Assembly (NCBI GenBank): GCA_028872015.1
Contig: JAGWLO010000022.1
Span: 1-50,873, forward strand
Direction of reading: 5' to 3'
Length of the DNA: 50,873 bases
Source of the DNA: Burkholderiales bacterium
GTDB lineage: Bacteria > Pseudomonadota > Gammaproteobacteria > Burkholderiales > Burkholderiaceae_C
Translations under genes and position numbers: made by a program
Notes under the pieces: generated by a model
Databases searched by the model: none
The model's input: the letters and a program-made list of their open reading frames with translations, nothing else
Told to the model about the DNA's origin: nothing
Shown: positions 32,221 through 41,754 of the stretch, piece after piece
Layout of the letters: each line of letters opens with the position of its first letter
Numbering within the stretch: position 1 is the first letter of the stretch

Positions 32221-33186
32221 TCAGGCCGCCATCGGCACCAGGAAGTCGCGGCTGATGCCCACGCCGAGGTCGTTCACGCGGTCCAGGAACTCGGTCAGGT
32301 AGGCATGCAGCCCCGTGGCCAGGATCTCGTCGATGCGGGCGTACTGCAGGTCGGCGCGCAGCCGGCCGGCGCGACGCAGGGTCTCGCCGCTCTGCTCGTT
32401 GGCCACCATCTGCAGGTTCGTCACCACCTCGTTCATGCAGGCGGCCAGCGAGCGCGGCATGTCGGGCCGCAGCATCAGCAGCTCGGCCACCTTCTCGGGG
32501 CGGATCACGTTGCGGTAGACCTTGCGGTAGATCTCGAAGCCCGAGACCGAACGCAGGATCGCGCTCCAGTGGTAGAAGTCCACCTCGAGCGTGTCCTTGG
32601 CGCTGCCGGGGCCGAAATAGTCGTCGCCGGCCAGGGCCTGGAACTTCACGTCGAGCAGCCGCGCCGTGTTGTCGGCCCGCTCGAGGAAGGTGCCGATGCG
32701 CAGGAAGTGCAGCGCCTCGTCCTGCAGCATCGTGCCCACGGTGACGCCGCGCGAGAGGTGCGAGCGGAACTTGACCCACTCGAAGAAGTTGCCCGGGTCG
32801 CGCTCGAAGTAGTCGCTGGCCAGCAGCCGCCTGAACTCGAGCCAGGTCTGGTTCTGCGTCTCCCAGGTCTCGGTCGTGAGCGCGCCCCGCACCGCGCGCG
32901 CGTTCTCGCGCGCCGCGCGCAGGCAGGCCACGATGCTCGAGGGGTTGGTCTCGTCGCGCACCATGAAGTCCATGACGCTGCCGGCGCCGACCTCGCGGTA
33001 CTTGCGCGAGAAGGGGCCGGTGAGCTCGCTGATCGACAGCAGGCCGCGCCAGCCCTGCTCGGCCATGTCGGCCGACTGCGGCAGCAGCGAGGTCTGGTAG
33101 TTGACGTCGAGCATGCGCGCGGTGTTCTCGGCGCGCTCCATGTAGCGCGCCATCCAGAACAGGTGGTCGGCGGTGCGTGACAGCAT
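32221..33186 (-). CDS. Alpha-E domain protein (DUF403)
   Basis: 321 residues, all-helical. Begins MLSRTADHLFWMARYMERAENTARMLDV, the signature of the alpha-E family, with repeated E-R-A-x-N-x-A-R patterns (also FLERADNTARLLDVKFQALAG). Alpha-E proteins are predicted partners of circularly permuted ATP-grasp ligases in peptide-synthesis operons (comparative genomics of Iyer, Aravind and colleagues). The gene lies 15 bases downstream of the ATP-grasp gene on the same strand. No catalytic activity has been shown for the family to my knowledge. Confidence 0.9.
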   Translation of the reverse strand: MLSRTADHLFWMARYMERAENTARMLDVNYQTSLLPQSADMAEQGWRGLLSISELTGPFSRKYREVGAGSVMDFMVRDETNPSSIVACLRAARENARAVRGALTTETWETQNQTWLEFRRLLASDYFERDPGNFFEWVKFRSHLSRGVTVGTMLQDEALHFLRIGTFLERADNTARLLDVKFQALAGDDYFGPGSAKDTLEVDFYHWSAILRSVSGFEIYRKVYRNVIRPEKVAELLMLRPDMPRSLAACMNEVVTNLQMVANEQSGETLRRAGRLRADLQYARIDEILATGLHAYLTEFLDRVNDLGVGISRDFLVPMAA

Positions 33187-33201
33187 CGGTGGCCTCCGGC
33201 C

Positions 33202-41200: not shown

Positions 41201-41754
41201 TCGCGGCACGAGCCGCTGCCGTTGGCGAGCGTGGTCTCGGGCGTCTGCACGCCCGGCTCCATCCGGATCAGGTACGAGATCTCGCGCTGCAGGCGCTGGT
41301 TCAGGCCGACCATGAAGTCGATCGTGCGCACCCGCTCGCGCGAGACGCTCTCCACGAAGGCCTTGAAGCGCGGCGACTGTGCGGACAGCGGCTCGGTCGC
41401 CAGGTAGGGCAGCAGGTCGCGCGCCAGCTCGGGGGCGTAGGCGAAGGGGAACTGCTCGGCCTCGGGCTCGAGGAAGAAGTCGAACGGGTTCAGCACCGAC
41501 ATCTCGGCCACGAGGTCGACCGTGACCTCGAGCTCGCGCATGGGCTCGGGGAAGACCAGCCGCGCCAGGTAGTTGCCGAAGGGGTCCTGCTGCCAGTTGA
41601 CGAAATGCTGCGCCGGCTCGACGCGCAGCGAGTAGCTCAGGATGCGCGTGCGGCTGTGCGGCGCGGGCCGCAGCCGCACGACCTGCGGCGACAGGCCGAC
41701 CCGGCGGTCGTAGCGGTAACGCGTGACATGGTTCAGCGCGACATGGATGGACAC
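38230..41754 (-). CDS. Large transglutaminase-DUF2126 protein
   Basis: 1174 residues from GTG 41754, with AGGAG nine bases ahead. Residues 1-280 are the bacterial transglutaminase N-domain plus transglutaminase core with Cys183 (GSGSCRDTG), His232 (DLHAWCEIY) and Asp248 (GLDPTSG). The remaining 880 residues are DUF2126 ([73 protein letters not shown]). Between them is a low-complexity insert near residues 590-660 ([13 protein letters not shown] and [12 protein letters not shown]). This protein heads the minus-strand cluster. Its start lies within the last 22 bases of comEC. DUF2126 has no established activity; its His/Cys/Glu-rich blocks suggest an enzyme. Confidence 0.9.
   Translation of the reverse strand: [1174 protein letters not shown]
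39760..40020. repeat. Low-complexity insert in the DUF2126 gene
   Basis: Plus strand around 39930-39968 shows repeated CCCTGGATGCCCTCAATGCC-type units coding [12 protein letters not shown] on the minus strand, and near 39745-39765 GCCTCGGCCTCGGCTTCGGC coding A-E-A-E-A-E. The flanking sequence is conserved, so these are in-frame expansions in a linker. Confidence 0.6.

Follow-up and report, generated by a model that had tools for sequence, protein, structure and literature searches.

A putative two-module ATP-grasp/alpha-E/transglutaminase operon of Burkholderiales in which the fused ATP-grasp is probably non-catalytic

Glutathionylspermidine synthetase/amidase (GspSA) joins a ligase to a cysteine amidase, a logic to which that of the five-gene operon described here can be likened. 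The operon lies in a contig of a Burkholderiales bacterium (GCA_028872015.1, JAGWLO010000022.1, positions 1 to 50,873 of the forward strand), the whole of which was analysed and is referred to as the window; it encodes ATP-grasp and alpha-E proteins, both stand-alone and fused, together with two transglutaminase-type proteins, the larger of which carries a DUF2126 region. GspSA and eukaryotic glutathione synthetase share their fold with the fused ATP-grasp and are sequence kin of 3n6x, the solved relative of the stand-alone one, but here the proteins are separate, the fused ATP-grasp lacks the E-x-N motif, and identity is about 10%. According to the accessible parts of two reports (PMC6376114, PMC5666114), the Anbu operon of Pseudomonas putida (PP_2685-2688) and Yersinia bercovieri consists of ATP-grasp, alpha-E, transglutaminase and Anbu genes. 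The ATP-grasp and alpha-E families are alike, and Anbu is present in our genome; by contrast, it is unlinked here, the Anbu-type transglutaminase is absent, and the DUF2126 protein, the fused protein and a further transglutaminase are added. The peptide-synthesis/amidoligase systems predicted by Iyer et al. in 2009 (PMC3268129) are, as cited in other papers, alike in their ATP-grasp, alpha-E and transglutaminase set, whereas in the present proposal the fused ATP-grasp is inactive and the smaller transglutaminase is placed with the DUF2126 and fused proteins. The literature searched, whose coverage did not take in Iyer et al., contained neither a substrate nor a statement that the fused ATP-grasp is inactive. 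A preliminary description of this DNA had linked the genes to families predicted to make or remodel a peptide with no established substrate, and the family assignments and the literature searched bear this out.

The five genes are consecutive on the minus strand, span 32221-41754 and are transcribed in the order D-F-T-A-E:

38230-41754, minus strand: D, 1174 residues; Pfam Bact_transglu_N, Transglut_core and DUF2126 (1320 bits)
35659-38220, minus strand: F, 853 residues; Pfam CP_ATPgrasp_2 (439 bits) and Alpha-E (181 bits)
34647-35642, minus strand: T, 331 residues; Pfam Bact_transglu_N and Transglut_core
33202-34650, minus strand: A, 482 residues; Pfam CP_ATPgrasp_2, PF14403 (555 bits)
32221-33186, minus strand: E, 321 residues, stand-alone alpha-E; Pfam Alpha-E (339 bits)

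D and F are separated by 9 bases, F and T by 16, and A and E by 15, while T and A overlap by four (ATGA). The genes, their strand and identities and the 1174-residue protein given in the preliminary description are thus confirmed by open reading frames and Pfam, and its spacing (a four-base overlap and gaps of 9-16 bases) by the gene coordinates. NCBIfam gave no match to any of the five proteins at an E value of 0.01.

Among relatives, the natural units are A-E, usually with Anbu, and D-F-T. The recurring layouts are D-F-T; A-E, to which a transglutaminase and Anbu may be added; and A-E-Anbu-D lacking F (17 loci of a sample of 150 Burkholderiales genomes, the order sample). Locus stretches were at most about 22 kb long, and contig ends cut some of them. 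T lies directly after F in 132 of 133 testable loci: among 135 loci with a full-length F, T followed in 119 by layout and in another 13 by tblastn, two ended at F and one was without T. In a tree of transglutaminases (60 of 110 F-linked T proteins, 28 alpha-E-linked ones and 25 D domains), the T of the window falls in the F-linked clade (support 0.71), outside the 28 alpha-E-linked proteins. A search of the genome for Bact_transglu_N genes found none beyond D, T and their counterparts on a second contig, C82, and no Anbu-type transglutaminase. The 331-residue transglutaminase had earlier been grouped with the A-E half; its clade and its adjacency to F speak against this, and a set made of alpha-E, ATP-grasp and transglutaminase is rejected as unnatural. 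Pairwise distances across 53 loci correlate at r 0.894 for D-F and 0.952 for A-E, against 0.772-0.824 across modules, with shared phylogeny uncorrected. The D tree partly separates D proteins by whether their genome has F (5 label changes versus 19 in shuffles), though not into two clean clades.

The dependence between the two modules is asymmetric: A-E often occurs alone, but each F genome found carries a separate alpha-E as well. Of the 150 genomes in the order sample, 81 had alpha-E, 50 had DUF2126 and 27 had F; each of the 27 with F also had a separate alpha-E and 26 had DUF2126, the exception being a genome that is 84% complete. Stand-alone alpha-E without D or F was found in 30 of the 81 alpha-E genomes, and alpha-E plus DUF2126 without F in 24. 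In a phylum sample of 299 Pseudomonadota genomes, with some Burkholderiales common to both samples, 156 had alpha-E, 84 had DUF2126 and at least 85 had F. Two or more alpha-E matches (F and a separate one) occurred in 85/85 of the F genomes listed, from 27 families (hypergeometric P 2e-31, a statistic that ignores relatedness); among the matches listed, D accompanied F in 74 genomes, D occurred without F in 10 and F without D in 11, and alpha-E stood alone in 61 of 156.

Some rows behind these counts were judged by hand. Alpha-E counts per genome in the phylum sample come from the genome table, and its F count is a lower bound from the matches listed. F genomes there were picked by hand as having one frame of at least about 800 residues and at least 624 bits; the set includes G404, whose frame has one stop, three genomes (G199, G219 and G337) whose matches end after the first two thirds of the model, and three weaker cases (G259, G271 and G306), while stop-containing rows that join adjacent A and E were left uncounted. 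In the order sample, an alpha-E match was called fused from frame length and score. Second pieces of split matches were omitted there (alpha-E of G051; DUF2126 of G046, G051, G090, G114, G126 and G137), and a short alpha-E match of G110 and a degenerate DUF2126 match of G136 were retained.

The arrangement D-F-T-A-E on one strand recurs outside the window in C82, L017, L021, L104, L105, L185 and L191, and L203 has F-T-D-A-E. A-E lies downstream on the same strand, upstream, on the other strand or outside the stretch in 3, 7, 6 and 12, respectively, of 28 order-sample loci with F (C82 included), in 2, 17, 18 and 39 of 76 named loci with F, and in 3, 3, 11 and 23 of 40 phylum loci; in the order sample, the halves lie on separate contigs or at distances above 12 kb in 12 of the 27 genomes with F. 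This separation, like the 61 of 156 genomes with alpha-E but neither F nor D, is what would be expected if the modules had unrelated jobs and genome order had put them together near comEC by accident. Such an accident is highly improbable, however, in view of the alpha-E that accompanies F in all 85 genomes listed, the sigma-54-type sites common to both modules and the plasmid of a distant genus that carries a complete A-E-D-F-T cluster. It had been proposed beforehand that independent occurrence of the halves in most genomes, with separate promoters, would speak against a single two-module pathway. The A-E half is indeed often alone, and halves that are separated tend each to carry a sigma-54-type site, but F does not occur without a separate alpha-E; a single two-module pathway is plausible, though not as two parallel copies.

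The two ATP-grasps differ at residues that are invariant in one and lost in the other:

34138-34146, minus strand: E-D-N motif of A (residues 169-171), missing from F; E169 and N171 kept in 126/126 A
36778-37893, minus strand: ATP-grasp half of F (residues 110-481), predicted to be catalytically inactive; E-x-N in 0/136 F
37627-37635, minus strand: F residues 196-198 (A-Q-R) in place of E-x-N, from the A/F alignment; the column agrees in two other alignments
35692-36633, minus strand: alpha-E half of F (residues 530-843), from Pfam and genome search; ER motifs kept

In A, the CP_ATPgrasp domain covers the full protein (3n6x match, E 1e-217), and the invariant polar residues of the family (E169, N171, R173, DDK 327-329, D436 and N467) are present in 126/126 sequences, that of the window included. 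F also has the CP_ATPgrasp fold, yet it has lost residues of this set: E-x-N is kept in 126/126 A versus 0/136 F, and D436, N467 and D328 of A are conserved in 0/136 F. Further records (E-x-N in 2/2 extra A and 0/3 extra F) and a smaller comparison (98 A, 90 F) agree. A therefore looks, by its residues, like an active ATP-grasp ligase, and phosphate release from ATP has been reported for its Y. bercovieri homologue in the accessible part of PMC6376114; F, given its residue losses, is probably not a second ligase of A's kind but a non-catalytic ATP-grasp/alpha-E protein. The 'two versions' of the preliminary description are accordingly not equivalent. Its model of two parallel ATP-grasp/alpha-E modules carrying out successive steps on one peptide, both ATP-grasps being active, would account for the ATP-grasp fold in both proteins and for the single tight operon, but is very unlikely in the face of the missing E-x-N, D436, N467 and D328.

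The gene for F is under purifying selection (dN/dS 0.264), and the residues that replace those of A are themselves conserved (R198 in 122/136, Q200 in 119/136, G206 in 135/136 and E356 in 125/136). Both observations would also suit a protein whose chemistry has changed rather than been lost, binding a nucleotide or phosphorylated intermediate and catalysing a different step. We regard this as unlikely; the sole close solved structure found for F, 3n6x, allows no activity to be inferred.

D comprises a transglutaminase domain (about residues 1-260) and the DUF2126 region (279-1172). The Cys-His-Asp triad is present in 155/155 D and in 60/60 F-linked T (Cys195-His238-Asp264 in the T of the window), and 15 of the 17 D positions checked are conserved in 155/155. 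DUF2126 is a putative amidoligase according to Pfam, and the model of the D catalytic domain, of low confidence, points tentatively to the glutamine-synthetase (GS) fold; compared with GS-fold ligases (GS, GmaS, YbdK and PafA), to which identity is 7-16%, D is fused to a transglutaminase domain. On the evidence of the fold, the DUF2126 region would be a GS-fold amide ligase and the ligase of its module. In the A-E-Anbu-D clusters without F (for example L030, L032 and L050), the DUF2126 protein lies directly 3' of Anbu, a layout that, if the model holds, may pair a GS-fold-like ligase with a proteasome-like protease.

Anbu itself was found in 76 of the 150 Burkholderiales genomes, 75 of them among the 81 alpha-E genomes, and is missing in 5 of the 27 F genomes. 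A, E, a transglutaminase and Anbu are not adjacent in the window: the Anbu-like gene of this genome lies at 6324-7148 (minus strand) of locus L231 on contig C94 (G000), adjoining mutS and unlinked to ATP-grasp/alpha-E genes.

Upstream regions of 300 bases were scanned for -24/-12 elements (TGGCAC-N5-TTGCW, GG and GC fixed, at least 9/11 matches; 40 shuffles). Sites precede A in 44/75 loci of the order set (shuffle mean 3.6, maximum 8), 29/35 of the named set (2.2, maximum 5) and 10/15 of the alpha/gamma set (0.6, maximum 2). When D is the first gene they precede it in 10/21 (0.8, maximum 4) and 46/66 (3.6, maximum 8) loci of the order and named sets, which are betaproteobacterial; before internal D genes they number 0/20, 1/13 and 0/6 in the order, named and alpha/gamma sets. 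The sites are most frequent some 40-80 bases upstream of the start; positions that were not scored match the known consensus. The first gene of the operon in the window is preceded by one such site:

41799-41814, minus strand: sigma-54-type site TGGCCC-N5-TTGCA, 10/11 matches, located in the 3' end of comEC with its start 60 bases upstream of D

A site of equal score likewise lies at -60 of D in C82. The other 10/11 sites in the window are at 17251 (plus strand) and 44257 (minus strand), one of them inside comEC, and no site scoring at least 8/11 was found before F, T or E. A 9/11 site 46 bases before A is left unclaimed, random 300-base stretches reaching that score in 96/2180 cases.

Published data on relatives, as given in the accessible parts of the papers, mostly fit nitrogen control, although they conflict over rpoN/ntrC dependence. 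In a Burkholderia cenocepacia ntrC mutant, DUF404/407, DUF403, transglutaminase and large transglutaminase genes were down 6.0- to 9.4-fold (PMC5491218), the last of which we infer to be D. PP_2685 and PP_2688 of P. putida changed by log2 4.4 and 4.0 on nitrate versus ammonium (PMC8050072), DUF403/404/407 were associated with urea genes in metagenomes (PMC3597751), and PMC3325844 is also among the fitting data, while PMC8305402 and PMC13207237 held, in the parts accessible, only ATP-grasp genes of unclear kind. Taken together, the sigma-54-type sites and the published NtrC data suggest a pathway for nitrogen limitation in which amide bonds are formed and cleaved.

One variant of such a pathway is pupylation-like tagging in nitrogen starvation, in which the D ligase would add a peptide or protein tag that Anbu and the transglutaminases remove or degrade; we think this quite unlikely. 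Equally doubtful is a nitrogen-starvation ligase complex of D-F-T in which a dead F would present a peptide or protein to GS-fold D, the product passing to or from the A-E/Anbu core, as a counterpart of the Pup ligase and proteasome built from different parts.

We instead favour, with a probability of roughly 45%, one operon of two functional modules, an A-E core and a dependent accessory D-F-T module. In the core, the ATP-grasp ligase A and its alpha-E partner would work with the unlinked Anbu. In the accessory module, D would be bifunctional, a transglutaminase-type hydrolase/transferase and a GS-fold ATP-dependent ligase, and T a second transglutaminase-type hydrolase/transferase. F, a glutathione-synthetase-like ATP-grasp minus its metal-ligand motif, would be non-catalytic and, together with its alpha-E domain, act as a scaffold for D that binds substrate or product. 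Amide bonds would thus be formed by A and the GS-fold domain of D and cleaved or transferred by T and the transglutaminase of D, with binding left to F. Sigma-54 and NtrC would probably activate both modules at nitrogen shortage, and the most likely outcome would be amide-linked (peptide or peptide-amine) intermediates that are made, trimmed and recycled, so that nitrogen is released or stored. The module borders, the residue loss in F, its dependence on A-E and the promoter pattern are observed; the ligase of D is suggested by its fold, and the scaffold function of F, the role in nitrogen supply and, in this organism, control by NtrC would follow by inference.

Several observations weigh against this model. 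E-x-N, which we take to be a metal ligand, could not be matched by profile alignment to that of GspS: the A profile aligned elsewhere, so that the attempted proof of equivalence failed, and the F profile, which puts F196 and F198 over the GspS motif, did so with a non-significant Prob of 0.2. F retains other ATP-grasp residues (E242 in 136/136, K376 in 78/136), and some residues that never vary in E are likewise missing from its alpha-E half (N112, 114/114 E versus 7/70 F, the comparison covering only the 70 F whose domain border fits a pattern). The D model is poor, with Foldseek alone placing GS at an E value of 1.3. No D match accompanies F in 11 of the 85 F genomes listed, and the co-variation of distances is uncorrected for shared phylogeny. 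As to regulation, first-gene D in the alpha/gamma set has sites in only 2/24 loci (shuffle 0.9), and a simple palindrome scan found no NtrC-like site (9/10) within 500 bases before D in the window. In P. putida, according to the part of PMC7801951 available, nitrogen limitation raised PP_2686-2688 11- to 15-fold in the wild type, and an rpoN mutant retained an induction of 14- to 20-fold; PP_2685 (Anbu) changed just 1.1-fold in the wild type.

The genes concerned are widespread, as the phylum sample shows. If one ATP-grasp is silent, D-F-T never occurs without A-E and both modules respond to nitrogen, then the question of the 'unknown peptide' becomes one of which ligase acts, under which condition and at which first step. 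For pseudo-enzyme biology, a conserved but inactive ATP-grasp retained as a partner within an operon would also be of use as a case.

Upstream of the operon lies comEC (41733-44600), the end of which is overlapped by 22 bases by D, whose start is GTG; the gene following E encodes an S9 prolyl oligopeptidase. Other Pfam matches nearby are the following:

45511-47823, minus strand: DNA gyrase/topoisomerase IV subunit A
48589-50292, minus strand: AMP-binding enzyme
24930-25868, minus strand: histone-deacetylase-type protein
23522-24880, minus strand: mechanosensitive channel

No terminator-like site was found in 30000-45000 of the window, and the single sigma-70-like site in that range (32116-32143) lies past E. 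C82 (21,453 bases, same assembly; L005, L006) is collinear with 27,400-47,800 of the window, flanking genes included, in blocks that are 81-91% identical. A second, paralogous operon of the same genome is rejected, as the collinearity extends over most of C82 and into the flanks; with assembly contamination estimated at 3.16%, C82 is best read as a related strain within a mixed assembly. Of the 80 named loci kept, one from a Rubrivivax metagenome-assembled genome has the nearest D (81% identity); there, comEC, D, F, T, A, E and an S9 gene succeed one another as in the window. The operon is of an already known type.

Antisense to F and most of D runs an open frame of 1849 residues (35641-41190, plus strand), probably owing to the high G+C content. 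PMC7764037 lists the metagenomic clone jj117 for antinematode activity; its annotation, with ATP-grasp, alpha-E, transglutaminase and protease, looks like an Anbu-type cluster. The complete A-E-D-F-T cluster mentioned above lies at 1156-10347 of the Enterobacter roggenkampii plasmid NZ_CP116251.1 (L238). A search of Escherichia coli genomes found no near DNA match to it, and this is the only plasmid record with one; an IS26-family transposase gene lies about 5 kb away.
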